Source: Eublepharis macularius
Taxonomy: Eukaryota; Chordata; Lepidosauria; Squamata; Eublepharidae
Reading direction: 5' to 3'
Length of the DNA: 64,000 nucleotides
Assembly (NCBI RefSeq): GCF_028583425.1
Contig: NC_072799.1
Location: forward strand, 89,514,217 to 89,578,216
Below are positions 2,311 through 61,100 of this stretch, in pieces; the first letter of the stretch is position 1; every line of letters starts with the position of its first letter. Made by a program: the position numbers and the translations under genes. The notes beneath the pieces were generated by a model. That model was not told the DNA's origin and ran no database searches. It was given only the letters and a program-made list of their open reading frames with translations.

Positions 2311-2970
2311 TCAATCCCCCATCCTTTTTTTGACAAATAGCACTGGAGCCGCATGCGGGCTATTTGCGGGTCGGATGAATCCTCTTTTAAGATTAGTGTC
2401 AATGAATTTGCGGAGCTCCTCTCGCTCATTTGGACTCATAGGATACAGTCTGCCTTTAGGTAAAGATGCCCCCAGTAAAATTTCCATGGCACAGTCTGTC
2501 CTCCGGTGTGGAGGTAAGGAGTTGGCCTCCTCTTCGGTGAAGGCTTGGACATAAGCTCTATATTGTTTAGGTATTTGGTTAAGTTCTTCTTGAGTTAACA
2601 GGGCTTGTTCAATGAGAGTAGGGTTTTTGCCCCAGTTTTGATTCCAACGATGATTTTCACATTTCTCATGGGAAAATGTAATGCTTCCTACTTTCCAGTC
2701 TATATACGGGTTGTGATCCCACAACCATCTGCTTCCCAATATTAAAGGATACTTTGCTGTAGCACTAATTACGAAGGATCTCATCTCCCAATGTTGTCCC
2801 ATACCTGTAATGACAGGTATAGTTTCGGTAGTGACCGGATTCATATTAGTGCCATCCATTTGCTCAAAAATGACTGGAGTTTCCAGTTCTTTTACAGGGA
2901 GTACTAATCCATTTACTAAGGCTGGTGCAATAATGTCTCTAGAGCAGCCCGAGTCTATCAGAGCTTGCAC
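2311..2970 (-). pseudogene. gypsy copy A protease and start of reverse transcriptase
   Basis: The open stretch contains the retropepsin motif ALIDSGCSRDIIAP, and, downstream, the sequence just before the RT fingers (LKRGFIRPANSPHAAPVLFVKK). It is part of the relic pol region of the element at 1-6105. Confidence 0.8.
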
Positions 2971-3086
2971 ACGAATATGTGTTTTTCTTTCTGAGTTAAC
3001 TAACGTTACTGGTATGAATAGTATGGACCCATGAGGTCTTTCCGGAATTGGAACTGACTGGGTTTCGATCTGCCGCTTGGGTCCTT

Positions 3087-5741: not shown

Positions 5742-6105
5742 TCAGACAAGAGTCCGTTGTTTTCAAAAGATTTACTGAAAAAAGCAACCATTATAGTCCA
5801 CTGGTCCAGATGCAATATCTGAACTGGTACACGTGTAATGTTACGAATGAGAGGCAAAGAATACAGTACAAAGTATCAAGACTCAGTAGGCCCAGCCTCC
5901 CCCCACAGTTCTCAAAACAATCCCTTTGAAGCTGAGACAGTGAACGTTTCCTAGGACTGGAAAGCTGTAGCCAAAACATTCCTCTTCTGAGAGATAGCTG
6001 CTAGGGAACATCTTGGCACCTGTGAAGAAAGCACTCAGAACACTAAAAGAATTAAAATGGAGTCTCTTTGGTTACAACATATAGAGAAGCATTCTGAACC
6101 TGGCA
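5693..6105 (-). repeat. 5' LTR of gypsy copy A
   Basis: The internal edge starts TGTCAG, the same six bases that begin the LTRs of copy B, and is preceded by the same AACAAAA leader word. A shared TCAAAAG-TTTA-TGAAA block follows. I place the outer end at TGGCA (6105), where a CT-rich microsatellite begins. The outer end is less certain than the inner one because the second LTR is outside the window. Confidence 0.6.
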
Positions 6106-6255
6106 CTTTCCTCCCTTCTTTCCTTTCTCTTTCCTTCTTTCCATGTCCTTCCTTCTTTCTCTTCCTTCCTTCATTTCTCTCTCTCTTGCCTTCTTTCCCT
6201 CCCTTCCTTTCTCTTTCCATGTCTTTCTTTCTTTCTCTCCCTCCCTCTCTCTTCT
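6106..6255. repeat. CT-rich (TTCC/CTTT) microsatellite
   Basis: About 150 bp of nearly pure pyrimidine on the plus strand, built from irregular TTCC, TTTC and CTCC words. It abuts the LTR of gypsy copy A. Confidence 0.9.
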
Positions 6256-6415
6256 GGGGGGGCAGCTGCACCATGTGCAATGACATCACTTCCCAGAAGT
6301 GATGTCATTGTATGGTTCCGGGAGCATATACACATGCATGTATAGTGACAGCGGCACTCCCTCCTTCCAGGAGTTGCCCTAAGTGAGAGTTCCCCCACCT
6401 CTTTCCCCAGAAAAA
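6256..6415. repeat. MITE-like fragment with short palindrome
   Basis: A 14-bp inverted repeat (AATGACATCACTTC and its complement, 6278-6310) is followed by an end that reads CCACCTCTTTCCCCAGAAAAAA. That end resembles the right end of the CAGGGCTTTTTTTC hAT MITE at 38288-38606. No clean target duplication was found, so this is a degraded or partial copy. Confidence 0.5.
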
Positions 6416-9400
6416 AGTCATGGGTATAAGAATGGCAAACATCTAAAGGTTAGTCATTATACCTTAGGGTTACTTCAATCAACTGTATTGAGAATGACTT
6501 ATTATCCAATACACCTGAGAAATTACAATACGCTGGTTGTAAGCATCTGAACAGATACAGGGTGTGTCCTAAATCTTGCTACAGCAATTTTCTAATTTAT
6601 TACTGCCATTTAATCTAATTATGAATCAACAAATAAAATCTAATCTGTAGAGAACACAACCAGTATTACCAGATTTACCCAACCAATTATAAGAAGCATT
6701 TTTTTTCATAAATGAAACTCTTTGATCATAGGCAATTCTGTTTGGTTACAGCAAAATAAAATAAACCGCCAATGACATCTTAAAGACTGATAACATTTAT
6801 TTCGATATGAGCTTTCATGAGTCACAGTTCAGATATATGAAGGGAAGATCATACTGGGAATTCTTATGGGGAAGATTACAATGGTGTGCAGGGGAGGGGG
6901 GAGTTGAAGCAGAGAGGTTTTGTGTGAATTCCAGCATGAATATTTCAAGCATCAGTTATCTGTGTAAGGGGGGGAAGGATGAGCTGAGGTAAAAAGGTTA
7001 AGCTTGAATCAGATCATAAATAAACAGAATTAGCATTTATACATGATGAGAAAGATCAGAGGTTCAAGTAGATAAGCAAAATAATTAAGTAGAAGAAATA
7101 GGATGAATAAATATTTAAGGAGAAGTAGTTAAAAGTTTAATTGAAAATTAACTGATACGGTATACAGATAGCATCTGATAAAAGATGTTAAGAATTAAAA
7201 TTCGAAAAAGTGCTCCAGTTAGGGTTGCAAATCATCAGCTGGGGCCGGGAGAACTGGAATTACAACTAATCTCCAGACTATAGAGATCAGTTCCCCTGAA
7301 GAAAATGGCTGCTTTGGAAGGTGGGCTCTATGGCATTATTATTTTTTAAAAAACTGGGCCTCCAGTAGGAGGGTAGCAGAGTAGCGTCAATTGCAGAGAA
7401 AATGTGATGGGTGTTTTGTCTCTTGCTGGCTGGTGTGAGTATGAGAGAGAAAATAACGAATTTACACTTAGCTTAGGTTTAGAAAAGAAATAAGAATTTT
7501 TTATTATAGGAACTCCATACTGTGATAGAAAAGGATAGATTCCTACCTACCCATCTAGTCTAAGGATGCATATGGATTGCACGACAAGTCCTGCATCCAT
7601 GGTGCAAGATCGAGAGAAGAGATAGTAGTGTGGCAAAGGGAGGAAGAGAAGGATGTCACAAGGAGGAATTCCTGAGATTAGCAATCTACACATCAAAGGA
7701 CAGTTCAGGGCAGTAAGGACTAGTAACAGATGCCCTGACCTTTCTATATTTCTAACTTTCTGGTTTGTCCCCTTCTAAAACCTGAGGAAAGGGACAGCGT
7801 TAAATCCTCCTCTTCTAACAATATATCCTGCTGAGGTCCCTCCCCTTCTGAAACCCCATGATCTCCATGCTCCACCCACAAATCTCCAGGAATTTTACAA
7901 CCAGGATATGGCAACCCCAGATCCTTTAGAATTATTAGCAATTGCAATGACTAAGGAAATCTCTGTTTAAACTGTTTAATTCCTGGATGGGTTCTGAATG
8001 CTTAAGAAGCCAGTCTGGTCTAATCTTTGTCCTGTCCTGGAACCTTGGGCGAATGAGCCTCAGTAAGTTTATTCAGAAAGAGACAGAAACTGACCGATCA
8101 CTCAACACAAGGCAGGCGAGAGATCTTCAGCAGAGTATAAATTAACTCTAATTAGCAAGTTTTAATATTTGTTTTTTTTCTAGTTAAGGCTACTATTATT
8201 TTCCTTTGCTATACAATAATTTCTAACTATCTGTGCTTCTTATTTAATTAGATGTTTAGTGGAATAAAGCTGTTTTAGAAACCAAACTACTTGATCCTTG
8301 GGAGAGGGAATTCATCTCAGAAACATTTCCAGCCCACATAAACCCATAGACTGCTAAGTCACACACAGACACTGACAGTCCTGGAAGGATGGCTCCATCT
8401 TTAGTTGAGAAGAAAACTCAAGAAGTGCATGGGGCGGGCGGGCAGGGGGGGGAGCAGCCAGGAAGAGTGTGTGCCATGTCCTCTGACATACTCACACACC
8501 TAACTGAGATGAACCAGATACCACCTCTTCCAGTAGTTTACTGGAGAAATTCCATTACCTGGAACGACTGTGGTTGCACTGGTGGCTGCCACTCAGGTTC
8601 TAGTCCTGGTTTGATTGGAAGGAGCGCCGATTTTATAAAGTTTTCCTCACAATCATGTTTCCTCAGTGATCTGGCTCAGGTACAGACAACAGCAGTAGAT
8701 GACAATGAGCTGATTGGCAGGGGGCACTGGGATTGCAACAGGATCCAACCAACTCCCTTTGGCCACCAAAAAAACCATGGAACTTTCATGGACAAAAGCC
8801 ATCTGAGATAGGGCTGTAATAAGAAGGTGAAAAGGCTGAAACGGAGCAAAAAAAAACCTGGCTGGATCCAATCCATATGCACCAAAACATTTCTGGCCCA
8901 TCACTTTTTAAAAAAAATGTAACTAAATGTAATGTGAGAATGAAATAATTTTTCCACAAATAATAGAATTTTCATGTGAGTTTAGTTGCTTTGCCTGACT
9001 TCTTGTGTACGGGACATGCTTTTCATTTTCCTTTATCCTGTAGGTATAATTACCCTTTACATAATAATCTGTTAAATACGTCACATGTTATCAACAGCCA
9101 GTTCTAGCTGGTGCTAACCAGTTCATGTTCACTTTGTGATTTCAAGATTATGTAGTTCACACCCACATCTTTATGTTATTCAGGGAGACAAGAAATTCTA
9201 CGGTTTTACGAGCCTACTGGAAATATACTTTTATGAAGGTTTTTACTCTATATCCTGCTACAAAACAGTGCTATGTGACCTGTACTGATTATACAATGTG
9301 TTATTCTTAAAAATCATGTGAGGTACCCAACCCATTCAAAGACTGCATAGCTTATTGTTACTTTTTAACCAATCCATCTGATAAATGTCAGAATATGCAG

Positions 9401-29784: not shown

Positions 29785-30150
29785 GGTAGTTTCAGGTAGG
29801 TAGCCACGTTGGCCTGCAGTAGAACACCAGTCCATAGTATTTAAGTGGTTGAGTTGTAAGTCAGCATTCTGCTGGTTCAACTCCCACTATAGCCATGAGC
29901 TCAGCAGGTGGCCTTGGGAAAGCCACTAATCTGTCTAGAAGCTTAGAATAAAAGCAGTAGAAAAGAGCAAGAGTCCAGTAGCACTTGTAAGACTAACAAA
30001 ATTTGTGGGAGGCGATGAGCTTTTGTGACTCACAGCTCACTTTGTCAGATACAGCTAGAATGTGAGTCCATCATAAGAACAGATGGACTTGGAGAGTGGA
30101 GTGATTACAGAAACTGAATAATAATAGTATATAAGTATATAAGCACACTG
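29785..30150 (+). repeat. Fold-back retroposon interrupted by a Sauria-type SINE
   Basis: GGTAGGTAGCCACGTTGGCC near 29796 and AAGAGTCCAGTAGCACTTGT near 29967 belong to the fold-back family. Between them (about 29838-29950) lies a tRNA-derived SINE piece (TAAGTGGTTGAG ... GTTCAACTCCCACT). Confidence 0.6.
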
Positions 30151-42904: not shown

Positions 42905-42912
42905 CCCAGGAT
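42905..42912. repeat. Left 8-bp target duplication of the giant hAT
   Basis: CCCAGGAT, identical to 55384-55391 on the far side of the 12.5-kb element. Confidence 0.95.
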
Positions 42913-43094
42913 TAGGGATGTGCGTTTCGGCATTCAGAATGCCGAAAGAATGCCGAAACAAAAGTGTTTCGGCATTCTTCAAGAATCCCGAAACGTTTCG
43001 GGGAATGCCGAAACGTTTCGGGATTGCCGAAAGAAAAACCCGAAATGTTTCGGGATTCTTTCGGCATTCTTTCGGCATTCGAGAATCGCCATTT
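42913..43094. promoter_or_regulatory. Left terminal inverted repeat and subterminal CCGAAA/TTTCGG cluster
   Basis: After the 12-bp end come 13 copies of CCGAAA or its complement TTTCGG within about 165 bp, several as back-to-back CCCGAAACGTTTCGGG palindromes and most adjoining a CATTC/GAATG word. In hAT elements such subterminal clusters bind the transposase BED domain. That role is inferred here. Confidence 0.75.
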
Positions 43095-43097
43095 TGA

Positions 43098-43320
43098 TTT
43101 TGCTAGCCGTTTGCCTTAGCAAGCGGCTAGCAAAATCCTGCTGGAAGCAAAGGCTTCCTGCAGGCTCTTAGAAGAGGGGAGGGGGGGAGAAGGAGTGAAT
43201 CACTCACTCCTTCTGTCACCCCCCACCCCTCTTGCAAAGGAGGATAGGGAATCCTGCTTTGCCTTGCAAATGCAAGGTGCAAGCATTGCATTGCACTTTG
43301 CATTTGCAAAGCAGCAGAGA
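43098..43320. other. Two strong hairpins in the left arm
   Basis: TTGCTAGCCG ... CGGCTAGCAA (43102-43135) is a perfect 10-bp stem. TGCAAATGCAAGGTGCAA and TTGCACTTTGCATTTGCA (about 43266-43309) form a near-perfect 18-bp stem around GCATTGCA. Confidence 0.7.
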
Positions 43321-43732
43321 TTCCCGCCAAAACTAACAGGTAGGGGAGGGGGAGCAGGAGGAGGGTGGCTCTTGGAGTGTGGGTGGGGAAAGGCAGGGGA
43401 CTGGGGACTTTAGGAGTCACCAATCCCACTGCTGCATTCTCATGCCAGCCAATAGATTTAAATCTTTGGCTGAGGCTGCAGCAGGGGATTTAAATTTGGA
43501 GCAAGACTGTCTGGAACACTTCTGTTGCTGCTGCTGCTGAGCTGTGACCGAGAGAGGAGAAGAAGAGAGACTGCACCTGGAGCCTGGAGGACATCTGCCT
43601 GGAGGATCAACTGTGCTGGACATCCTGAGAGGACACCTGGTAGGCCTTTTTAAAATTTTTGTAAATTTTTTTGATGCTGGGCAATGTGCTGCTGTGGCCT
43701 GCCTCTGCAAAAAGGTGTTGCAGTTTATTCTT

Positions 43733-46035
43733 GGCATGGCCTGGGGGACAGGTTGGGCAGACAATGTTTGATGGTGGGGTGGGGGTTTCAGCATTGGTTG
43801 TTGTGCTTGCCTTCTTTAAGCTTGATCCACTGTTTTAAGATTAAAACAAGAGTGTGCCAGCTTTGGGCCTACACAGGCCAGAAGCCTTTCTTCTGGCTGG
43901 CTCTCACAGTTGTGCTCCACAATCTGGAATGGTGTGGCTTGCTTTTCTGTGTCTGGTCCCCTGCTTGCAAGGATTCCCAACAGGCTCCGTCCTGATCAAC
44001 TGTGCCAGCCTGTGGGCCACACACAGGTATGGCCTGGGGGACAGGTTGGGCAGACAATGTTTGATGGTGGGGGGGGGGGGGTTCAGCATTGGTTGTTGTG
44101 CTTGCCTTCTTTAAGCTTGATCCACTGTTTTAAGATTAAAACCAGAGTGTGCCAGCTTTGGGCCTACACAGGCCAGAAGCCTTTCTTCTGGCTGGCTCTC
44201 ACAGTTGTGCTTCACAATCTGGAATGGTGTGGCTTGCTTTTCTGTGTCTGGTCCCCTGCTTGCAAGGATTCCCAACAAGCTCCGTCCTGATCAACTGTGC
44301 CAGCCTGTGGGCCACACACAGGTATGGCCTGGGGGACAGGTTGGGCAGACAATGTTTGATGGTGGGGGGGGGGTTCAGCATTGGTTGTTGTGCTTGCCTT
44401 CTTTAAGCTTGATCCACTGTTTTAAGATTAAAACCAGAGTGTGCCAGCTTTGGGCCTACACAGGCCAGAAGCCTTTCTTCTGGCTGGCTCTCACAGTTGT
44501 GCTTCACAATCTGGAATGGTGTGGCTTGCTTTTCTGTGTCTGGTCCCCTGCTTGCAAGGATTCCCAACAGGCTCCGTCCTGATCAACTGTGCCAGCCTGT
44601 GGGCCACACACAGGTATGGCCTGGGGGACAGGTTGGGCAGACAATGTTTGATGGTGGGGGGGGGGGGTTCAGCATTGGTTGTTGTGCTTGCCTTCTTTAA
44701 GCTTGATCCACTGTTTTAAGATTAAAACCAGAGTGTGCCAGCTTTGGGCCTACACAGGCCAGAAGCCTTTCTTCTGGCTGGCTCTCACAGTTGTGCTTCA
44801 CAATCTGGAATGGTGTGGCTTGCTTTTCTGTGTCTGGTCCCCTGCTTGCAAGGATTCCCAACAGGCTCCGTCCTGATCAACTGTGCCAGCCTGTGGGCCA
44901 CACACAGGTATGGCCTGGGGGACAGGTTGGGCAGACAATGTTTGATGGTGGGGGGGGGGGGGTTCAGCATTGGTTGTTGTGCTTGCCTTCTTTAAGCTTG
45001 ATCCACTGTTTTAAGATTAAAACCAGAGTGTGCCAGCTTTGGGCCTACACAGGCCAGAAGCCTTTCTTCTGGCTGGCTCTCACAGTTGTGCTTCACAATC
45101 TGGAATGGTGTGGCTTGCTTTTCTGTGTCTGGTCCCCTGCTTGCAAGGATTCCCAACAGGCTCCGTCCTGATCAACTGTGCCAGCCTGTGGGCCACACAC
45201 AGGTATGGCCTGGGGGACAGGTTGGGCAGACAATGTTTGATGGTGGGGGGGGGGGGGTTCAGCATTGGTTGTTGTGCTTGCCTTCTTTAAGCTTGATCCA
45301 CTGTTTTAAGATTAAAACCAGAGTGTGCCAGCTTTGGGCCTACACAGGCCAGAAGCCTTTCTTCTGGCTGGCTCTCACAGTTGTGCTTCACAATCTGGAA
45401 TGGTGTGGCTTGCTTTTCTGTGTCTGGTCCCCTGCTTGCAAGGATTCCCAACAGGCTCCGTCCTGATCAACTGTGCCAGCCTGTGGGCCACACACAGGTA
45501 TGGCCTGGGGGACAGGTTGGGCAGACAATGTTTGATGGTGGGGGGGGGGGGGTTCAGCATTGGTTGTTGTGCTTGCCTTCTTTAAGCTTGATCCACTGTT
45601 TTAAGATTAAAACAAGAGTGTGCCAGCTTTGGGCCTACACAGGCCAGAAGCCTTTCTTCTGGCTGGCTCTCACAGTTGTGCTTCACAATCTGGAATGGTG
45701 TGGCTTGCTTTTCTGTGTCTGGTCCCCTGCTTGCAAGGATTCCCAACAGGAACCGTCCTGATCAACTGTGCCAGCCTGTGGGCCACACACAGGTATGCTG
45801 CTTTGGCCAAGGTAACCCTTTTTGGTTGCTGGCCTGGCACTCACAGTTGTGCTCCACAATCTGGAATGGTGTGGCTTGCGTTTCTGTGTCTGGTCCCCTG
45901 CTTGCAAGGATTCCCAACAGGCTCCGTCCTGATCAACTGTGCCAGCCTTCGGCCCACACACAGGCCTGCTGCTCCGGCTTTGGTAACCCTTCCCGTTTGC
46001 TGGCCTGGCACTCACTGTTTTGCTTCACATTCAGG
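43733..46035 (+). repeat. 295-bp tandem array (seven near-identical units plus decayed units)
   Basis: The word AGTGTGCCAGCTTTGG recurs at 43851, 44145, 44437, 44732, 45027, 45322 and 45617, spacing 292-295 bp. Length differences come mostly from a poly-G tract after TGATGGT. Units are almost identical, implying recent amplification. After 45790 two diverged units follow, and a further partial one lies at 46390. Repeated open frames of 126 and 86 codons are a consequence of the array, not separate genes. Each unit carries an acceptor-like AAAACCAG|AGTG and a donor-like CACACAG|GTATGG about 176 bp apart. Confidence 0.93.
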
Positions 46036-46938
46036 TTGTTTATCGTTGGTGGACCTCTTCTGGACTGGACTGCACTTGGTGGACATCGGCCTGCAGATCT
46101 CTGCGTGGAGGATCAACATTGCTGGACATCTGCACTGGTGGACTGGTAGGGTTGTTGTTAAATTTGGTTTTTGAGCTTATGTCTGCTGCTGTGCCTACCT
46201 GCGAGCATATGCTTTGGCTCTGTCTTTATGGCTTGGGCCGGGGGGGGGGGCATTTTCTGGTTGGGCAAGAGGATATTGTTTGGGGGTTAGGGGGGCCAGC
46301 ATTGATCGCAGTGCCTGCTTTCTTTCATGTTTCATTTTTCAAGTTTGAGTGTGGGGTGGGCATGAACTGCTGTTTCACAGGACTAAAAAATGAGTGTGCC
46401 AGCTTCTGGCCTGCACAGGCCAGAAGCTCTGCTGGGTGGATGTGTTTTGTTTTGCTGCTGGTTGGCCCTAGCCTTTAAGGGGGGGGGGGCTGACTTGGCT
46501 TGTGCAACGGGGCCTTGAATTTTGGGGTTGCGTGTGCGGCGTGTGGTGTTGACTCTGCTAACATTTCCAATTTTCTTGACAGCATCGTGGAGGAGAGGAG
46601 GACCAGCTGCAAGACCGCCTGAACATCGCTGGACTGCAGGACTGGTGTTACTGTGAGCGAGTCCGGGTTCACATTTGGGTGGCCTTGGGGGTGGGTTCTT
46701 GCTAGCTTGGGAGGGGGGAGGCTCATCTTCAAAACACCACATCCACACCCCACACCGACATACCACAGATACATCGGTCCCGCTAAATAGTGTCTCTTAG
46801 GTAGGTAGGCCAGTTGGTAGGTGATCAGTGGATAATTGCCCTCAACATAATTATTAGGGAAACCGAGCCTAGTTTTTTTTAAAAAACTAAATAGGGACTC
46901 AGCAGGGAAAGCATTAGTGAGTGAGTGTTAGGTTTGAA

Positions 46939-46942
<4 letters not shown>

Positions 46943-46970
<28 letters not shown>
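46943..46970. repeat. (TA)n microsatellite
   Basis: About 13 TA dinucleotides between the tandem array and the transposase promoter. Confidence 0.9.
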
Positions 46971-46972
<2 letters not shown>

Positions 46973-47149
46973 TTGTAATAGCTGTCAATAGGCTTCCCAT
47001 TAGTGCCCCCATAACTAGGGTTCCACTGCCCATCTCTGGCACCCGTGGTGGTGCCAGGCCGGCCCGGGCATACTAGTGTGTGAGTGTTTAAGGCTTTGTC
47101 ACCTGTTATTGGGGTTTAGGGCCAGCTCAATTCCAGAGGAATTCAGCTG

Positions 47150-47336
47150 ATTGGCAGGCTCAGGTTCCCTGACATAAATAGGGTTGCTTAAAAAGGCACT
47201 TGATTGTTCATCTCCAAGTCACAGAGCCACTAGAAGCACAGATTTAGAGCAGGTTAGTTAGGTCTTGAAAACAAAGTTGACCTTTGTTTTCTAAATCTTT
47301 TCTGATTAGTTAGGGTTGAATTTGGGAGGGGAAAGT
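47150..47336 (+). promoter_or_regulatory. Probable transposase promoter and 5' UTR
   Basis: ACATAAATAGGG near 47172 is TATA-like and is followed about 30 bp later by a cap-like TTGTTCATC stretch. A pyrimidine-rich run ending TTTTCTGATTAG at about 47310 is an alternative splice acceptor for upstream exons. Either route leads to the ATG at 47337. Confidence 0.5.
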
Positions 47337-50075
47337 ATGTCGGAGAGGAAAGCAGAGAGGGGCCCCGGGGGAAAGGCTAGGGAGAAATCTAGAGGGGAGG
47401 AGGGGAGGGGGAGGGGGACTGCTGCGGCAGCCCCTCCATCTGAGCGGAGGAGGCCCTCCCCTGCGCTGCTGCCGTTCACCAGCCTGGCTTCTGGTGACAG
47501 GAAGAGGGTTCGCAAGACTCTCTTTCCTGAGGCAGCTGCTGGAGGGCCACCCCCAACCCGGGTGCGTGAGGCAGGGGCTGGCACTGGGCAGGGGCCTGCT
47601 GCTGAGGCTCCTCCTCCTCCAGTGGTTGCGAGCCAGCTGCTGGAGGAGGGGCAGCATGTGGTGTCTCCTGGGATGGGCGCGGAGCACATGACTTTCCCTG
47701 CGCTCCCGCTCACCCCAGGAACCCGGAGGATGTTGGAGGAACTGCCCGTGAGACCCCCCCTGGGGCGGTCCACCCCAGTTTCTTCTGAGGCCAGCAGCAG
47801 GCCTCTCGCGGCTGTGCAGGAGGAGAGGACGCGGGAGGAAGAGCCAGAGACTGTGGTGGAAGAGCCCACATCTCTGCCCCTTCAGCCTCGTCCATCCCCA
47901 CCTGCCCGGCCGAGAGTGGGACACGGTGTGTCCGGCCAGAGCACCTCACAGGAGGTGCCGCAGGGTGGTCCCGAACGCGCTTCTCCTGGGAAGCGTGGGA
48001 TGCCCTTTTCCTCTGAAATCTGGAAGCACTTCCAGACAACGGAGGATCCCCGAGCAGCCCTGTGCCTGCATTGTAGGCAGCGCGTCAGCCGTGGCAAAGA
48101 TGTGTGGCATCTCTCCACGTCTGGGATGAGGTACCATATGAAGAGGCACCACCAGGCGGTGCTTCTTCGGGAGGAGGGTTCTAGTGGCGCCGCACGGCCG
48201 CCAGCTAGCCAGAAGGAGGCAGGCTCCTCTGGTGCTCTCCCCCCAAGGGTACCTGCAGGAAAGGGACGCCAAGCCTCTCTCCCGGAGATGCTTGGTATGC
48301 AGGGCGCTAGTGTGCCCAGAGAGGGGATCCGGAGGGCGAGCAGGCGCATCACGCGCCACATCGTCAACATGATAGCAGTGGATGGGCAACCGTATTCCGT
48401 AGTTGAAGACTTCGGCTTCTCAGGGCTGCTCCAAGATTGCTTTCCCTGGTACGCCGTCCCTGCTCGCACGTCGTTGAGCAGATCGGTGGTGCCCTCGTTT
48501 TACAGGGCTGCCAGGGATCATGTGAAGGCACAGCTGTCCCGGGTTGCCGGGAGAACTGTGCACTTCACATCGGACATCTGGACCTGCCCAAGTGTGCAGC
48601 AAGCGTACCTCTCGCTTACTGCTCACTGGTGGGAACCCGAGTCGGTTCTGGGTGGGGGCCGGGGGGAGGTGCCTAGCACAGCTAGACAGGGAAGGATGCG
48701 AGACCGCCAGGCCGGCTACTGCAAGGCCTTGCTTCACGCCGAGGTGCTCGACGTGTCCCACACGGCGGAGAACATCGCTGCCACCTTAAGGAGACAGTTG
48801 GACGAGTGGATAGGCCAGGGACCCGCCACCGTGGGATGCATGGTGACGGACGGTGGCAAGAACATGAGGGCAGCGGCGCATCTAGTGAGCCGAGAGAGCG
48901 TCTACTGTGCCGCTCACAAGCTTCACCTAGTGGTGAGAGATGCGCTGGGGTTGGGCTCCTCGAAGGAACCCGTGGATACCCGGACCCGTGAACTCCAGTT
49001 ACTTGTCCAGAAATGTCGGAGGCTCACGGGTCACTTCTCGCGCAGTGTGAAGGCCACGCACGAACTGCGCCAGACACAGGTCAGGACAGGTGTGCCAGAG
49101 CACGCTCTGATCACTGACGTCAGCACTCGCTGGAACTCCACCTGCGCCATGCTTGAGCGCTTGGTGGAGCAGCAGGCCGCACTCCACGCGTGGCTCTCCG
49201 AGCACCGCGGTGCGAGTCAGGTGGGTGAGTTCAACCGGGAGGATTGGCTCACCATCACCCAGACAGTGGAGGTCCTGAAGCCCTTCAAGGACTTCACTGT
49301 GGCGGTCTCGTCAGACACGGCGACCCTCGGTCTGGTCATTCCCCTGGTGCACACGCTCCAGAGGAATCTGGCCACCCTTGCAGACCGGGTCGCGCCCCGT
49401 GCTGACCTTGTTCCAGCGGTGCGCGCATTAGTGAGAAGGCTGCAGCAGGGCATAGCTGCCAGGCTAACTCCTCTCACTAAGGAAGAGTCATACATGTTGG
49501 CGACCATGTGTGACCCGCGCATAAAGGGCACTTTCGCCGAGCGGGACGGGAACCTCACCCAAGCCAGAGACGGGCTCTGCTCTTGGGTGAGGCGCAGGCA
49601 GGCCAAGAGGGGACGCCTGTCGACAGGGGGGACGCAAGAGGGGCCCTGCCGTGCGGGTCCCTCTGACGCCCCCTCTGCGCAGGCCCCCCCCGAGGCCACC
49701 ACCGGAGTGCCGATGGAGATGGAGATGCTCCGGTGGGCCCTCGTCCCCTCTGGGGTCGTGAGGACCGTGAGAGAGGATCCGGCGGAGGCGATGGTCAGGG
49801 ACTACCTCGCGGAGCCCTGCGAGTCGCTCTCCACCGATCCGCTCAGCTACTGGGCCAGGAAGGAGTCGGTCTGGCCGGACCTCTCCCTCGAGGCGCAGCG
49901 GCTGCTCTCATGCCCTCCGACGAGCGTGGAGAGCGAGCGCGTCTTTTCACATGCGGGCGACATTGTCGGCCCACATCGCACTCGCCTTCTCCCATGGAGA
50001 GTCGAGCAGTTGACCTTCCTGAAGGTCAACTCTCGCCTCTTCGATTTCTCAGGACTGGACTTCCAGAGTGACTGA
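47337..50075 (+). CDS. hAT transposase with BED zinc finger, intact
   Basis: An uninterrupted 912-codon frame from the first ATG (47337, A at -3) to TGA at 50073. The frame is open 21 bases further upstream but has no ATG there. Positions below are counted from that upstream limit (47316). Residues 1-225 are low-complexity, Pro/Ala/Glu-rich. A BED finger follows at 232-282 (WKHF, CLHC, YHMKRHH). The RNase H-like core has FTSDIWTC (Asp420), VTDGGKNM (Asp512), the hAT CxxH motif YCAAHKLHL, and TDVSTRWNS. The C-terminal dimerisation region is at 840-915 (DPLSYWARK, SVESERVFSHAGDI with the probable catalytic Glu, RLLPWRVEQLTFLK). It would cut and move elements with matching ends. Its GC content is far above the flanking DNA. 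Domain order resembles ZBED-family host proteins, but the surrounding TIRs and duplication show a resident transposon. Confidence 0.93.
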   Translation: MSERKAERGPGGKAREKSRGEEGRGRGTAAAAPPSERRRPSPALLPFTSLASGDRKRVRKTLFPEAAAGGPPPTRVREAGAGTGQGPAAEAPPPPVVASQLLEEGQHVVSPGMGAEHMTFPALPLTPGTRRMLEELPVRPPLGRSTPVSSEASSRPLAAVQEERTREEEPETVVEEPTSLPLQPRPSPPARPRVGHGVSGQSTSQEVPQGGPERASPGKRGMPFSSEIWKHFQTTEDPRAALCLHCRQRVSRGKDVWHLSTSGMRYHMKRHHQAVLLREEGSSGAARPPASQKEAGSSGALPPRVPAGKGRQASLPEMLGMQGASVPREGIRRASRRITRHIVNMIAVDGQPYSVVEDFGFSGLLQDCFPWYAVPARTSLSRSVVPSFYRAARDHVKAQLSRVAGRTVHFTSDIWTCPSVQQAYLSLTAHWWEPESVLGGGRGEVPSTARQGRMRDRQAGYCKALLHAEVLDVSHTAENIAATLRRQLDEWIGQGPATVGCMVTDGGKNMRAAAHLVSRESVYCAAHKLHLVVRDALGLGSSKEPVDTRTRELQLLVQKCRRLTGHFSRSVKATHELRQTQVRTGVPEHALITDVSTRWNSTCAMLERLVEQQAALHAWLSEHRGASQVGEFNREDWLTITQTVEVLKPFKDFTVAVSSDTATLGLVIPLVHTLQRNLATLADRVAPRADLVPAVRALVRRLQQGIAARLTPLTKEESYMLATMCDPRIKGTFAERDGNLTQARDGLCSWVRRRQAKRGRLSTGGTQEGPCRAGPSDAPSAQAPPEATTGVPMEMEMLRWALVPSGVVRTVREDPAEAMVRDYLAEPCESLSTDPLSYWARKESVWPDLSLEAQRLLSCPPTSVESERVFSHAGDIVGPHRTRLLPWRVEQLTFLKVNSRLFDFSGLDFQSD

Positions 50076-50404
50076 GGTGAGCCCAACTTGTGGCCTGCAT
50101 CCTCTATGAGTCCAATCCTTTGGAATCGCGCTCTCCCCTGTATAAAACCCTGTATATACAGTTAAAACCGGCCAGTAGAGGGAGGGTGGTTAGGAACCAG
50201 TGGCAAAGGGAAAACACCCAGCAATTTGAAAGCCCCCCCCCCAGGGTATTCAAAACATCTCCCATCACTGAGACATACCCTGTGGGACCAAATTTATTAT
50301 GAAAAATAATGCCCCAGAAACATGGATTGCTACTGGAGGGAGAAACAGGTTAGATAGGGATTGCTTAGGTGTTTTTATCAGATGAAATCCTTGTAAAAAA
50401 AAAT

Positions 50405-50680
50405 TGTAGAAGAATTGTTGTACTGTTTTTTGAAAGTTGATGTTCCGTTCATGTAAAAAAAAGGAAAAAAAACCAAAAAAAAATGTTGTGATTATGTTTT
50501 TTAAAAGTTGATTGAATGTTCATGAAAAAAAAAAACCCAAAAAAATGTTGTGATTATGTTTTTTAAAAGTTGATGTTCTGTTCATGTAAAAAAAAGGAAA
50601 AAAAACCAAAAAAAAATGTTGTGATTATGTTTTTTAAAAGTTGATTGAATGTTCATGTTTAAAAAAAAAAAAAATTGATG
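50405..50680. repeat. A-rich tandem repeat in the transposase 3' UTR
   Basis: TGTTGTGATTATG followed by TTAAAAGTTGAT and an A-rich run recurs at about 50483, 50545 and 50616, with a decayed first copy at 50413. Spacing is 62-71 bp. Confidence 0.8.
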
Positions 50681-50921
50681 TTAATGTTGGGTTTGCATGG
50701 TTGGGGGATGCGGGTAGAGTGGTGGATGGGCACCGGCCAATGATGATCTCTCACAGATGTTCCCAGGTAAATTCTGAGGCTGGTGTGGGGGTGGGGGGAG
50801 ACCTCTGCAGAACTGCTCCAGAAATACCATTGTCCAGTGCCTTGGAAGTGCCCAGTTCAGCTTTGTGTGTCTGAACTGAAAGCACAGCCACAGGAAATGA
50901 CATAGGTTCTGCTGGACCCTG

Positions 50922-51443
50922 TTGCAGTGGTTCCCCCCCCCATTTAGTCATGTTATGGAGGGAGAGTTGTATTAGGCTGGTAGTTATGATCATCTTCTGT
51001 TTCCATGCCCTGTTGTGCCCGCTCACTATGTAACCTGCTGTAATGTTCAAAACTTTACTGTTTGTCCATTTCAAAAGAAAAATTGTGTTTAAGATTCTCT
51101 GATGTGTAGTTAATTGTGTTGTGTTGTGCTATGAGGGACAATAAGTGTAATATGTTGTGATTTGTTGACCACTTGTAATTTGAAAATGAGAAAATAAAGG
51201 TTTTTTAAACTTAATGATTGTGTGTCTGTGTTCCCTTCTTTGATGGGAGGTTGGTTCCCAGCATAGGGAACAATGGGGCAGGCTGGCCAGCCTGTTCCTG
51301 GGGTACTGGGTGTGGGGCAGCTGAGGGTGGTTTTGGTTCTGAGAGGGGCTGAGTGGAGGATTTGGGTCTGTGTGTGGCAGCTGGGGTGGGGGAACTGGGT
51401 TTGTGTGGGGCTGTAAGGAGTGGACTATGGGGGATGAGAGCAC
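50922..51443 (+). repeat. Right-arm block A, first copy
   Basis: TTGCAGTGGTTCCCCCC through GAGAGCAC, including the poly(A) site. It recurs almost unchanged at 53943-54642. Confidence 0.85.
51193..51215 (+). terminator. Transposase poly(A) signal
   Basis: AATAAA at 51193-51198 is followed by a GT-rich GATTGTGTGTCTGTGTTCCC stretch, the classic downstream element. The predicted 3' UTR is about 1.1 kb. Confidence 0.7.
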
Positions 51444-53690
51444 TGGTTGTCCCTTGTGCCCAAGTAGGCCCCTGCTACTGTCCTGGTGTGGGCTTCCATG
51501 CCTCTATCAGTTGCTGGCCCTCCTTTGCCATCTTTTTCTGAAATTTTCCTAGGGCTGCCAAACTCCTGGTTGGGCTTGAGTTCAGGTTAGAGAGAGTAGT
51601 TCCCTACAGAGAAACTGGCTGCTTCCAAGGGCAATCTCTTTAGAGGGCAAATGCGGACCATGGATTCTGGGGGAGATCCCTACTCAGATTTTCCTTTCCA
51701 CAAGTCCCACCCCCAAATTGCCAGTAACTTCCAAGGCCAGAGTTTGCCACCCCAGAGAGATCCTGTTCCCACCCTCTTAGCCTTGGCATGAAAGTTGTAG
51801 CCCCCATGGAACGCTTCCAGGTTCCTGATTCCAAGCCCAATGACACCAATGTAAGACAATCCAGACCTCCATCAAAAATGGATTTTAAGTAGCAGTGGGA
51901 TTGGGCTGCATTTCAGTCATTCACATATCTGGTTGTGTTCCCAAACATTTAGCTTATGTTTTTTTAAATCAGCGTATGGCACTTAAGGACACTTTTAAAT
52001 GGTTCTAAAAACATATTTTTATTATGAAGTATTTAATGTGGCATTGATCAAGGGCAGGCCTTTTGGCCAAATGAGCAGTATCAGTACAGTAAAATTTAGA
52101 CAAAGCTCATAGGAGGAAAAAGCATTCACACTGTGAAGTGGGAAGAAAGTTTCAATTTACATGTACCATGGACTCCGAAAAAGACATGTAAGTGGCATCC
52201 AGACCAAATCAGGCCTGCTTTCTCCCTTGAAGATATCAATTGATGATAGTGCTTATGTCACATCATGAGAAGACAAGGTTCACTAGAAAAGACAATAATG
52301 CTAAGAAAAATTGAAGGCAGTAGGGAAAAGAAGAATACCCTAGATGTGGTAGATTGACTTCGGTTTGCAATACATGGACAAGGTTTTTGGGATACTGTGG
52401 AGCTCAATATAATTCTAAAGTACACCACAAGTGATTTGAATGCATAAAACATACAGACACATACACATAAAATGTATATACCCCCTCCCCACCAAATTAA
52501 AGGTTTATCTTATGCCCCGGTTTTCTCCCCCATGGGAACCTAGAGTGGTTTACACATTGCTGTTCTCCCTTGATTTGTTTCACCCTCATCACAACCAGGC
52601 TAACAATAGACAGCTGCTCCATGCCTCACATTGGAGTGACTCCACCGATGGCCTTCTTAGTTGTTGGAGGGGGTGGAGGGGGGGGAGGAAGGAAACAACG
52701 CACTCCTGCCCACTCTATCTGGGGCCTAGGTGACCAAATTGCTTGGCCTTGGCAAGGAGCCAGTGGTGGGGCGGCACTGGTTCTGGGGCCCCGTCCAGAA
52801 CATTTGTCCAGGGCCCCAAAATCACCTAGACTGCCTCTGGAAAACACAACACAATTGTTTACTTAGGCTGAGCCAAGAACATCCATCAAGCCTACAAGGC
52901 ACAGAATCAGAGTCTGCCAGATTCTAGACCAACTCTCTAGCCATTGCACTACAGTGGATATCTAAAAATTGTTCATACCCCCACCAGCAACTTGAACATT
53001 TTTCTCCAAAAGGCACAACTTGGCTGGGTCTCAAAAAGGACTATGATGCATGGGCCTGTCAATGCATACTGGTACTAAGGCTCTGGCCGGGGGGAGGGGG
53101 GCATTGTGCCAATGCCACCCTGGCTTTGGAAGGGGACAGTAAAATAGAAGAAATAATCTAGTTTCAGTGCCTCCCCCCCTTCTCTGTCTCTCTCTCTCTC
53201 TATAATGTGAGTGAAAACATTACTATACCATCACTGAAGCCTAGAGGATACTTAGGGTCTGTTCACACACGCATGATCATTTAATGGCAATGCTCTGGCA
53301 TGATGATGTCTGTTCTAGGAGGTGATGTGATCATCACACAAGGCTGGGGAGCACGCACAATTCACAGCAGGCAGATTTGGGCCACAAGGGATCCTGCTTT
53401 GGCCTGTAGGGCCCAAATCAGCCCACTGCAAAGCACAGGCATACTCTCAGGGCAGCCAGATGACATCAGTGACATCACGGCAGCAGCCCCTGGAGCGTAC
53501 CTTGAAGGCTCATTCACTGACTTTCCCCCTTCGGGGTGATAGGTGAGAGTGGGGGATCCCCCACCAAGGGGAAACGGATCCCTAATTGTGTCTGAGGTTG
53601 TGGAAATCAAATGGGTCATTACCTCCATATTGCTTCTGTCTTTGAGGGACTTACATGCACATTATATTTAACTCCAGATTTCTTGATTGT
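51444..53690. other. 2.2-kb segment between the duplicated right-arm blocks
   Basis: This segment is unlike the rest of the transposon. It contains a reptile repeat piece (51549-51790), SINE-like reverse-strand pieces (about 52500-52600 and 52840-52960) and a CT run (53187-53205), and looks like ordinary genomic DNA with old retroposons. No gene is evident. It may have been captured by, or inserted into, the transposon. Confidence 0.5.
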
Positions 53691-53699
53691 CAAGGAATG

Positions 53700-53942
53700 C
53701 ATGTGGTGGGGGGTGGGGGGGAAGGGTGGGAGAAGGGCACCTGAGGGTGAGGGTGGCATTTGGCATGCAAAATGCCACCCCTGGCAAGACAAGCCTCTCC
53801 CAGCTGTCAGTGGTAGAGATGAGAGCAGAGCACCCACTTGGGGAGGCCATGAAATGGCCCCCCCAAGTGGGAGCAGGCTGAGCCTTGGTGGGGGGATGGG
53901 AGGAAGGGTGGGAGAAGGGCCCCAGAGGGTTGGGGGGGGGAT
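53700..53942 (+). repeat. Right-arm block B, first partial copy
   Basis: Contains CACTTGGGGAGGCCATGAAA (about 53835) and a near-palindrome around GCATGC at about 53755. Homologous to 54643-54960. Confidence 0.75.
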
Positions 53943-54642
53943 TTTGTTGCAGTGGTTCCCCCCCATTAAGTCATGTTATGGAGGGAGAGTTGTATTAGGC
54001 TGGTAGTTATTATGATCATCTTCTGTTTCCATGCCCTGTTGTGCCCGCTCACTATGTGACCTGTTGTAATGTTCAAAACTTTACTGTTTGTCCATTTCAA
54101 AAAAAAAATTGTGTTTAAGATTCTCTGATGTGTAGTTAATTGTGTTGTGTTGTGCTATGAGGGACAATAAGTGTAATATGTTGTGATTTGTTGACCACTT
54201 GTAATTTGAAAATGAGAAAATAAAGGTTTTTTAAACTTAATGATTGTGTGTCTGTGTTCCCTTCTTTGATGGGAGGTTGGTTCCCAGCATAGGGAACAAT
54301 GGGGCAGGCTGGCCAGCCTTCTCTGCGGGTGGTGGGGGGGGTCAGGGGGGTGGTTGTCTGTGTGCCAGGGCAGGTGCTCTTTCCCAGGGACGATTTGGCA
54401 CTGCCACCATTGTGGCACCCCTTGTCTGTGCAGAACTGCCCTGGGAAAGAGAGTTTAGGGGTTCCCAAAAGGGGAGGGCAGGCCAGCCTGTTCCTGGGGT
54501 TATGGTGGGTGTGGGGCAGGTGGGGGTGGATTTGGGTCTGTGAGGGGCTACTGGGGGGATTTGGGTCTGTGTGTGGCAGCTGGGGTGGGGGAACTGGGTT
54601 TGTGTGGGGCTGTGAGGGGTGGACTTTAGGGGCTGAGAGCAC
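53943..54642 (+). repeat. Right-arm block A, second copy
   Basis: Repeats 50922-51443 including a second AATAAA (54219-54224) and GT-rich element. An extra stretch of about 180 bp after GGCCAGCC (54318-54490) is absent from the first copy. Confidence 0.85.
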
Positions 54643-54960
54643 CTACTTGGGGAGGCCATGAAATGCCCCCCCCAAGTGGGAGCAGGCTGAGCCTTGGTGG
54701 GGGGTGGGAGGAGGGGTGGGAGAAGGGCCCCAGAGGGTTGGGGGGCATTTTGCATGCAAAATGCCACCCCTGGCAACACAAGCCTCCCCCAGCTGTCTGT
54801 GGTAGAGATTAGAGCACCTACTTGGGGAGGCCATGAAATGGCCCCCCCAAGTGGGAGCAGGCTGAGCCTTGGTGGGGGGTGGGAGGAGGGGTGGGAGAAG
54901 GGCCCCTGAGGGCTGGGGGGCATTTTGCATGCAAAATGCCACCCCTGGCAAAGGAAGCCT
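54643..54960 (+). repeat. Right-arm block B, 175-bp tandem repeat with perfect palindrome
   Basis: CTACTTGGGGAGGCCATG starts units at 54643 and 54818. Each unit carries a perfect 22-bp palindrome centred on GCATGC (about 54745-54766 and 54920-54941). Confidence 0.85.
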
Positions 54961-55167
54961 GCCTCTTCATTTTTTCCCCATAGGAAATAATGAAGAAAGA
55001 TCAGCAGCAGCATGCTAACAATATGCTGCTCCTTTGCTTTCTTATGGGGAGGATGGGGGGACCTGCTTTGGGGGGCCATAACATGGCCCCCCAAAGTCCA
55101 ATCTGTCTGAAACTTGGGTAGTTGTTAGAGAAGGGTTAGAGGAAGGTCCCCACCAATTTTGGGCTTA

Positions 55168-55383
55168 TTTGGTGGGAAAATGCCTCCTCCAGGCGTCCTG
55201 AAAGACGGAGGCATTTTCCCAACAAAAAAACCCGAAAGAATCCCGAAAGAATGCCGAAATAATGCCGAATCCCGAATCCCGAAAGAGATTCTTGTTTCGG
55301 CTTTCGGCTAATGACGGTAGAGAATCTTGTTTCGGGTAATCCCGAAACAAGAAAGCCGAAAGTTTTTTCCTTGCACACCCCTA
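55168..55383. promoter_or_regulatory. Right subterminal CCGAAA cluster and terminal inverted repeat
   Basis: A 14-bp stem (GGGAAAATGCCTCC and complement, 55174-55221) precedes nine CCGAAA/TTTCGG words plus two CCGAAT variants, then TTGCACACCCCTA at the end. It mirrors the left cluster without being a simple inverted copy. Confidence 0.8.
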
Positions 55384-55391
55384 CCCAGGAT
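55384..55391. repeat. Right 8-bp target duplication of the giant hAT
   Basis: CCCAGGAT, identical to 42905-42912. Confidence 0.95.
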
Positions 55392-58191: not shown

Positions 58192-61100
58192 TCACTCTTC
58201 CCAAGCATCTCCATACTTATTAACTTTAACTACAAAAAAATAAAATAAAAGACTTAAGAGAGAGCTGATCTGCTGAACAAATAATACTACTAAATGTTTA
58301 GGATAGGGCAGAACTGCTGTGCCAGAAGGTCATGATTCAACCCAGTACTGGCTCAGATTATCACAACAACATACATTCCCAATACTATACTTGCTATTGT
58401 TAGGCTGAGTTCATCACAAAAAAAATCTAATGGTGCAATCCTAACAGTCTCCAGAGTTGATGGGCTTAGACTGGAGTAACTGTTTAGGACTGCTGTGTAA
58501 AACATACTTAATTTATACCCTGCCATGCTCCCCTCCCCTTTATCCTCAGAAGAACCCTGTGAGGTAGGTCAGGCTAAGAGTGTGAGACTGGGCTAAGGTC
58601 ACCCAGAGAACTTCCATGACAGAGTGGAGATTCAAACCAGCGTGACAAAAAGGCATCAAGTATGGCTATGGCTTATTCCCCTTCAGGACATCTTAACCGC
58701 ATTCTTTTATATTTCAATTTATAAACCGCCCATCCATTCTGATAATCAAAACAAAGTATGTTGACACTCAAGATGAGTAGCCGTGTTAGTCTGTCTGTAG
58801 CAGTAGACAAGAGAAAGAGTCCAGTGGCACCTATAAGACTAACAAAATTTGTGGTACAGTATGAGCTTTTGTGAGCCACAGCTCACTTCTTCAGATACTT
58901 GAAGAATACCAGACATCTGAAGAAGAGAGCTGTGGGTCATGAAAGCTCATACCGTACCACAAATTTTGTTAGACTTACGCACTCTTGCTCTTTTCTATGT
59001 TGACACTCTCAGGCTATAACCAATTTGGGTCACAAAGGATGCTGCAATACTAAAGTTTGCTGAAGTGAGTTTACATGGTAAGACTATGGTCATGCTAAGC
59101 CAACATGGCAGAGGGGCAGATGGTCCCATCGGTTCTAACACTTAATATATTCGTGGATTTCCTTCCTCTTCAGCAGACAAAACACTCTTCCATACAATGT
59201 CTTAAGTGTAACCTTACGTGGCATTTATGCATTGTTTCAATGGATTTCTTTTCTACATGTAAATACAATACCTGGAAAGTGCACTGAAAGGCAGAATAAA
59301 CTATTCTTCAAGGTTACACACAGTATTTTCTACTAAAAGGGAGTTAATTTCTCTTTATAGACTATTTCATTCTTAGTTTTCCCTGTACAGTTTTGTTTTC
59401 CAGTCAGAAACACACAGTCTCAAGGTTAGGGCCAAGTGCCATTTCCTTCCAGCAGAAAGGTAAACAAACGAACACAATGGCACATCCTCTGGCATTAGGG
59501 TCTGCATTCATAAGCTAGTGGGTGGTGGGGGGAGAGATCTTGAACAGCTTTCTGAAGGTACTAGCAGTTTGAAAGCATCTGATTGAGAACTGTTTATTAT
59601 ACGAGTTTCTTAAAGGTCCACAGAACTGAATACAATACCTAGGCTTAATTTTCTCAGTTTCTGCACCAGATTCATTCCAGAATTGTAGCCACATTAGTCT
59701 GGTGCAACCAAAACAGCAGAGTCTTGTTGACATCTTAAAGACCAATTAATTTATTGTGGCAGATGCTTTTATGACCCTAAGCCCACCTCAGCAGATAACG
59801 TTTTGGCAGCCAGTGAAGTCTCACAAATGCCCCGGGCGTTGTGTGCCACTGCCCAACGTCTTACCCACCACAACCACGTTCCCATTCAATGACTTTTTCC
59901 TTCTTCACCTTGCCAATCTAAAGAACGTACCCCTCTCCTGTTGAGTCACCATATCCTTTCACAGGGCTTTTTTCCTGGGAAAAGAGGTGGTGGAACTCAG
60001 TGGGCTGCCCTCGGAGAAAACGGTCACATGGCCGGTGGCCCTGCCCCCTGATCTCCAGACAGAGGGGAGTTCAAATTGCCCTACGCGCCCCAGTGCGGCA
60101 CGGAGGGCAATCTGAACTCCCCTCTGTCTGGAGATCAGGGGGCGGGGCCACCAGCCATCTGACCATTTTCAAGAGGTTCCAGAACTCCGTTCCACTGAGT
60201 TCCTGCTGAAAAAAAGCCCTGTCCTTTCATATACATCTATCAGATCCCTAATTACTCCTGCCCTCACCTGCATGGCCCAGGTGAGCCTGAACTCGTCAGA
60301 TCTCAGAAGATAAGCAGGACTGGCCTTGGTTAGTAATTGGGTGGGAGACCTCCAATGAAGACTAGGGCTGCAGAGGTAGGCAATGCCAAACCACCTTTGT
60401 TAGTCTCTTGTCATGAAAACCCCGCCAGGGGTCGCCATAAGTCAGCTGTGACTTGAGGGCACTCTCCACCACAATTATTCCTAGGCAGAAGCTAAAAAAA
60501 ATAACCATACCCTTTCAGATTTTCCTCATGTGTTGCAAATCTTGAGTAATTAACTCTGTTCTGACTTCTGCCATTAGCTCATGTAATGCAGTTTGTGCAT
60601 TTGATCTTTCCAAACTTTTATTGCGCTTGGGCAAAAGACAACTTTATTTTTTTCCAGCTCTGATTTTCAATATATCCTATCAGTCCCCTTTTAATAGTAT
60701 CTGTAATGCCTTTTTGTTTTGTACAATTTTACAAACGCAGTTAACACATTTCCCCCACCTATTCCATATTTACACCAACTAGCTGGGGTAATGCATGCCT
60801 ATCCCTTTTTGAATCTCAGTTGAACCTGTGAATTGTCTGTGTTAAGAAATGTATCACACCTGAAGCAATCGCTCTGATTTTGATTTTTGAAGGCTATTTC
60901 ACACATGGTAACTGCTGAAGTGGCAGTCATTCACAAGTGAACATACATGCATGAACGTGCCCAGGGATGAACAACCATTAGGGGACAGACTCCTGTGCAG
61001 TAGCTTTTCATGACGTATTAGTGTGTGTGCGTCATCAAGTCGCAATCAATTTATGGTTACCCCAGTAAGGCGCTTGAAAAGCAAGTGAGGTGGTTTGCCA

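Follow-up and report, generated by a model that had tools for sequence, protein, structure and literature searches.

Short non-autonomous forms usually far outnumber the autonomous copies of cut-and-paste DNA transposons, and within the hAT superfamily a target of the form nTnnnnAn marks the Ac family. Tol2 and Tgf2, the active hATs of fishes, are about 4.7 kb long. Hermes prefers T at position 2 and A at position 7 of its target, as quoted from one account (PMC8721813), the target of Buster elements is given as nnnTAnnn in the relevant passage of another (PMC3517528), and hAT length is quoted as 2.5–5 kb (PMC3942097). Active vertebrate hATs have been called rare (PMC4890040); the hAT-6_XT element of turtles, fishes, and a frog is described, in an excerpt of one report, as a case of recent hAT bursts in vertebrates, the transposases in reptiles being intact (PMC11008031). 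Inversions caused by Galileo, an element of the P superfamily in Drosophila, are known by opposite copies, exchanged duplications, and chimeric copies, according to part of a further report (PMC2775673). Here, we describe a 12.5-kb hAT element of the leopard gecko, Eublepharis macularius, found in a stretch of 64,000 nucleotides (RefSeq assembly GCF_028583425.1, contig NC_072799.1, positions 89,514,217–89,578,216 of the forward strand), which we call the window and whose own numbering is used for the positions below.

We regard this element, with high confidence, as a complete autonomous hAT transposon of the Ac/Hermes type that has spread very recently by cut-and-paste in the gecko lineage and is probably still mobile. 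Comparison with the described systems revealed that (i) the element resembles the Hermes and Ac hATs in its 8-bp duplication with T at position 2 and A at position 7, BED finger, D-D-E residues, RW motif, and dimerisation region, whereas its length of 12.5 kb, array-bearing long arms, single-exon transposase, and long N-terminal extension before the BED finger set it apart from them; (ii) it has the superfamily and the 8-bp duplication in common with Buster, but a central TA occurs in 0 of 31 duplications read in the gecko; (iii) it shares with hAT-6_XT a recent burst in a vertebrate, an intact transposase, and a reptile host, and differs from it, by description, in the particular host and in size; (iv) it is an autonomous vertebrate hAT like Tol2 and Tgf2, both of which have far fewer copies; and (v) it recalls Galileo in foldback-like structure and in an apparent inversion with exchanged duplications, but belongs to another superfamily, and the gecko foldbacks are non-autonomous whereas the autonomous element has short inverted ends.

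Ends, target sites, and arms of the element

The element occupies positions 42913–55383 (12,471 bp). An earlier sequence-only reading had placed its bounds correctly to the base, and the TAGGGRTGTGCR termini and exact 8-bp duplication that it reported were likewise confirmed. The target-site duplication CCCAGGAT lies at 42905–42912 on the left and, as an exact match, at 55384–55391 on the right. End comparison gave terminal inverted repeats of 12 bp, short as in other hATs: TAGGGATGTGCG on the left (42913–42924, plus strand) and, as the reverse complement, TAGGGGTGTGCA on the right (55372–55383, minus strand), which are alike at 10 of 12 positions. The motif TTTCGG or CCGAAA is present at 13 places within the leftmost 170 bp (42913–43082, plus strand), at 9 within the rightmost 215 bp (55169–55383, minus strand), and at a single place in the remaining 12,086 bp; when the single bases were shuffled 2,000 times, the means were 0.08, 0.10, and 6.0 for left end, right end, and interior, respectively, and neither end ever contained more than 2. 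The subterminal motifs are as dense as first read, and the blocks that contain them are presumed transposase-binding sites.

Both ends were read for 31 copies (the window copy, 10 long copies, 2 short copies, and 18 more), all of which had been selected for exact ends. Perfect 8-bp duplications, the length characteristic of hATs, flank 29 of the 31 end pairs, and the remaining two (loci L027 and L029, discussed below) carry each other's duplications. Position 2 of the duplication is T in 25 of 31 cases and position 7 is A in 23 of 31 (p = 1.7e-9 and 1.3e-7, respectively, at an assumed frequency of 0.28), which is the target pattern of the Ac family. The flanks recorded for 18 of the end pairs are all different. 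Empty sites, which the sequence-only reading had proposed as a check, were found for two copies other than that of the window. The L017 insertion lies in a repeat of which another copy, at window 29953–30127, lacks the element and has GTGATTAC only once. The joint of the short copy L035 is likewise crossed, at window 5592–6064, by a match that is weaker (68%, with a 12-base gap near the joint). Cut-and-paste transposition by a hAT transposase explains the ends, the duplications, the target preference, and the empty sites. The more specific placement in the Ac type is suggested by the target sites together with nearness to Hermes. The dispersed repeat, one relative of which hosts L017, has copies in the window at 29953–30127 and 58768–58998.

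With hATs quoted at 2.5–5 kb, a length of 12.5 kb is far outside the custom of the superfamily, as the first reading had pointed out, length being a customary and not a defining character. The transposase gene is flanked by a left arm of 4,424 bp and a right arm of 5,308 bp, large and non-coding with several tandem arrays, in agreement with that reading. The extra length is non-coding DNA, namely a 295-bp tandem array of 7.0 units in the left arm (43736–45797, plus strand; tandem repeat scan and anchor counts in copies) and the 5.3-kb right arm. The arms might contain cargo of benefit to the element, such as a gene captured from the host, and the 5.3 kb to the right of the transposase are indeed kept in most copies (on contig C1, 22 copies have both ends exact, and in 19 of these a transposase 60-mer lies 6.0–6.5 kb from the right tip). 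The open reading frame (ORF) listing, however, contains no long frame other than the transposase and its antisense, the rest being at most 250 aa and lying in G-rich or repeat DNA (the arms were given no protein-family search), and we consider cargo very unlikely.

The transposase and its relatives

The transposase is encoded in a single exon by an ORF of 912 codons plus stop (47337–50075, plus strand; ATG at 47337, stop at 50073–50075), and its identification as an open BED-hAT frame stands. It includes a BED zinc finger (residues 226–273; 48012–48155, plus strand; Pfam PF02892, E = 3e-8) and a hAT C-terminal dimerisation region (residues 821–896; 49797–50024, plus strand; Pfam PF05699, E = 1.3e-15), the latter also matched to Hermes in the PDB. 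A profile that combines the window protein with 12 fragments, all free of stops, from related loci of this genome matches the Hermes structures with an E value of 1.6e-21. Counted along this profile alignment, the motifs TSDIWT, TDGGKNM, and SVESERVFS fall on Hermes D180, D248, and E572, which correspond to D413 (codon at 48573–48575), D505 (48849–48851), and E867 (49935–49937) of the window protein, all on the plus strand. The catalytic residues are retained in the 12 related loci, where covered, in 8 of 9 cases for the first D, 9 of 10 for the second D, and 12 of 12 for the E. The 225 residues before the BED finger (47337–48011) are rich in proline, glycine, and arginine and have no Pfam match. 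A structure predicted for residues 225–912 from the single sequence had a mean predicted local distance difference test score (pLDDT) of 38 and was not used.

Among the related loci of the same genome, one is 83–89% identical to the window transposase and the others are about 35–54% identical over most matched stretches; most are broken by stops. These mostly broken loci indicate a lineage that has persisted for a long time and of which the young element is the most recent member. The 83–89% identical transposase (L089, C17:42114031–42114261 and around) likely belongs to an older subfamily. No relatives were found in the viral contigs searched.

The same relatives bear on the idea that Repbase or Dfam already contains the element, or a close relative, as a squamate hAT. 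They point to an old lineage that is widespread in this genome, and a DNA-element content of 3.47% was given for the 2016 draft genome through Repbase and de novo libraries, according to part of that paper (PMC5080775); on the other side, no report naming such a family was found in the open-licence literature, and a library entry of this kind seems to us possible but rather improbable. Nor did we find a report of the element itself in that literature. The element is an unusual hAT in its length, its number of intact copies, and its foldback partners; the class is known, and a repeat library may already list the element.

Copies in the genome, their age and variation

The genome searched comprises 2,236,738,225 bases in 72 contigs. 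Exact matches numbered 1,928 (989 + 939) for the first 60 bases (left end), 668 (354 + 314) for a transposase 60-mer, and 882 (467 + 415) for the last 54 bases (right end), with 0 matches for each reversed control; the other copies that the sequence-only reading had proposed to look for in the host assembly are therefore abundant. With up to 3 mismatches allowed, the left end gave 2,940 matches and the transposase 60-mer 1,026 (reversed controls, 0). Pairing of ends was limited to the matches listed, which reach to 122.3 Mb of C1. Here, 22 of 37 exact transposase matches have both exact ends, and the 100 exact left ends listed comprise 22 with the transposase, 7 with an exact right end at most 5 kb away, and 71 with neither. 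Assuming about 12 kb per transposase-bearing copy, we estimate that the autonomous set amounts to some 8–12 Mb, or 0.4–0.6% of the genome. Hundreds of young autonomous copies in one genome, with the frame intact in 10 of 11 that were aligned, are unusual for a cut-and-paste element.

Two further sets of copies were seen on C1. Two copies with matching duplications have both arms longer than the window copy (C1:62194623–62212587, 18.0 kb, and C1:47829485–47844989, 15.5 kb) and perhaps contain nested insertions; the transposase copies with an exact right end and no exact left end (11 of 37) may represent a second left-end subfamily.

The age of the copies was estimated from 11 of them (the window copy and 10 from C1), aligned in three segments with the array excluded. 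Diversity is 0.0029 in the left, 0.0029 in the middle, and 0.0047 in the right segment; by content, the ORF has a diversity of 0.0023, the non-coding sequence next to it 0.0042, and the right arm 0.0047. Six copies (L015, L023, L025, L027, L029, and L031) show only 4–13 differences in about 10 kb, and private substitutions in 9,796 shared sites range from 0 (L031) to 42 (L019). Ten of the 11 copies retain an uninterrupted transposase frame from ATG to stop, with 1–8 amino-acid changes relative to the window. In a protein search, all 62 matches scored extend over 719 aa at 100% identity (rounded) without stops; these were the best 62 of 11,965 candidates, and scoring from the best downward makes them a biased sample. 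At usual vertebrate rates, the youngest subgroup would be well under a million years old, a figure that we give for orientation and not as a result. The element has hundreds of near-identical copies, and the enzyme gene is intact in the majority of those examined; these copies argue for very recent jumping, and together with the 29 perfect duplications they uphold the first reading of a recent autonomous hAT. Its further suggestion that the element is possibly still active gains from the young, near-identical copies; judged from sequence alone, present-day activity is likely.

Several observations weigh against activity so recent and so general. Because copies were picked for exact matches to an end or to the transposase, the sample is biased towards young ones. 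Of the 37 exact transposase matches in the first 122 Mb of C1, 11 are without an exact left end and 4 have neither. When the joined flanks of the window insertion were searched against the genome, only its own two halves matched, so that the empty site proposed for this copy did not emerge. The window copy differs from the other ten at 33–69 positions, has 9 private substitutions in the 9,796 shared sites, and groups with L017 and L019 as an older subgroup. One of the 11 transposases (L033) is frameshifted. Variation in the ORF is distributed over codon positions 1:2:3 as 9:7:12, which means that selection on the protein among the copies is weak or not visible.

These points lend themselves to a different account, in which the amplification was recent and the family is now silent: the burst would have ended some hundred thousand years ago, the host would have shut the family down, and the frames would still be open only for want of time to decay. 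The gap between coding and non-coding diversity is no more than about two-fold, which together with the codon-position ratio implies that open frames need not be under selection, and the window copy belongs to the older subgroup. The six copies with 4–13 differences per 10 kb, one of them with no private substitutions, instead put the last rounds near the present. We take silencing to be a serious possibility, but one that falls clearly on the less probable side. Two further ideas were set aside. Purifying selection on the transposase was considered, the ORF having about half the non-coding diversity, but it is not claimed, because the codon positions vary as stated. Local hopping was considered because L025, L027, and L029, with 4–7 differences between them, are located no more than 80 kb apart on C1; L023 and L031 are far off and yet also 4 apart, so the evidence for it is weak.

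The 295-bp array is the most changeable part among the young copies. The first reading had missed this variation, as well as the place of the window copy outside the youngest subgroup and the foldback partners described below. Exact anchors of its unit number, as lower bounds, at least 7, 7, 6, 1, 8, 4, 7, 8, 7, 3, and 8 in the 11 copies, and among the 22 copies on C1 whose two ends are exact, the distance from the left tip to the transposase ranges from 4,599 to 8,704, whereas the distance on the right is mostly constant, as given above. The changes in length probably arise through slippage or unequal exchange during gap repair, and any function of the array might be that of a promoter or leader. 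If the element is still jumping today, the hypervariable array would serve as a clock of each jump.

Proposed mechanism of spread

The 912-aa transposase may use its BED finger to bind the clusters of TTTCGG/CCGAAA at the two ends, assemble via the hAT dimerisation region, and cut at the TAGGGRTGTGCR ends with a site formed by D413, D505, and E867. Insertion into 8-bp targets that have T as the second and A as the seventh base would then yield the target duplication, and copy number could rise by gap repair or by transposition at replication. Slippage or unequal exchange in the 295-bp array of the non-coding arms would shift the length between near-identical copies. The same transposase would also move foldback elements that have the same left tip and right end, and inverted pairs of copies may recombine and turn the DNA between them. 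The fullest version of this scheme is that the element is still jumping today in an amniote, with several hundred intact 12-kb autonomous copies that drive their own spread and that of a large set of palindromic foldbacks and invert segments where inverted copies recombine; we advance it tentatively, at slightly less than even confidence.

The leopard gecko is widely kept, both as a pet and in laboratories, and has many colour lines; should the element still be mobile, this species would allow a vertebrate DNA-transposon burst and the host response to it to be watched live. The transposase and its short ends would then also offer a natural hAT gene-transfer tool that does not come from fish.

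Foldback elements

Two short copies with both ends read have a structure distinct from that of the autonomous element. L035 (3,595 bp; duplication ATGATTGG) begins with the left tip of the element, followed by a palindrome (positions 137–3472 self-pair at 94.9%) that is made of right-arm sequence in both directions. L036 (2,283 bp; duplication TTCGTTAG) is a lopsided foldback form. Of the 71 left ends without partner, four were sampled over their first 2 kb (L090–L093), and all four have a left half of the L035 type. A 49-mer from the foldback left half, which is absent from the autonomous copies tested, gave 2,111 matches at up to 3 mismatches. This count was not taken as the number of foldback elements; one element can match the 49-mer twice, which places the number at roughly 1,000–2,000. 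The foldbacks have the same ends as the autonomous element and duplications of equal length, and for this reason they are probably mobilised by its transposase.

Exchanged duplications and a probable inversion

The two end pairs without matching duplications belong to inverted copies of about 12.7 kb with 14.6 kb between them. L027 (C1:25306540–25319487, plus strand) is flanked by CTCGCGGG and ATACACAC, and L029 (C1:25334133–25346777, minus strand) by ATACACAC and CTCGCGGG. Of the three marks of Galileo inversions, the gecko pair shows two, namely opposite orientation and exchanged duplications. Recombination between the opposite copies has likely inverted the 14.6 kb between them, as the arrangement of the duplications suggests. 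A misassembled 14.6-kb segment between near-identical inverted copies would give the same exchanged duplications, and inverted copies of about 12.7 kb at a distance of 14.6 kb are a classic setting for a false inversion, so that this one pair may be such a case. As an explanation of the copies altogether, a collapsed or misjoined repeat is extremely improbable: 29 of the 31 end pairs are each flanked by a matching duplication of their own, the flanks of 18 pairs all differ, and two empty sites exist elsewhere, none of which a false join can produce. With its exchanged duplications, the L027–L029 pair offers a direct test, in a vertebrate, of inversion driven by a transposon.

Other features of the window

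The remaining features of the arms are repeats and candidate signals. In the left arm, the 295-bp array is closed by 171-bp partial repeats in 2.2 units (45659–46029, plus strand). The right arm contains a 71/133-bp tandem repeat (50424–50674), a 175-bp tandem repeat of 1.8 units (54636–54951, plus strand), both from the tandem repeat scan, as was the 171-bp repeat, and AT-rich repeats. Self-comparison further revealed a right-arm segment at 50920–51332 (plus strand) that is duplicated, at 94.7% identity, by a second version of about 0.41 kb at 53945–54355 (plus strand). From sequence reading, a TATA-like ATAAATA at 47174–47180 (plus strand), about 160 bp upstream of the ATG, is a candidate transposase promoter, and an AATAAA at 51193–51198 (plus strand) is a candidate polyadenylation signal 3' of the transposase. 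A tRNA search gave 0 matches. Outside the element, a 5S rRNA-like sequence at 60254–60378, the single Rfam match (44.4 bits, E = 5.8e-6), is perhaps a 5S-derived short interspersed element.

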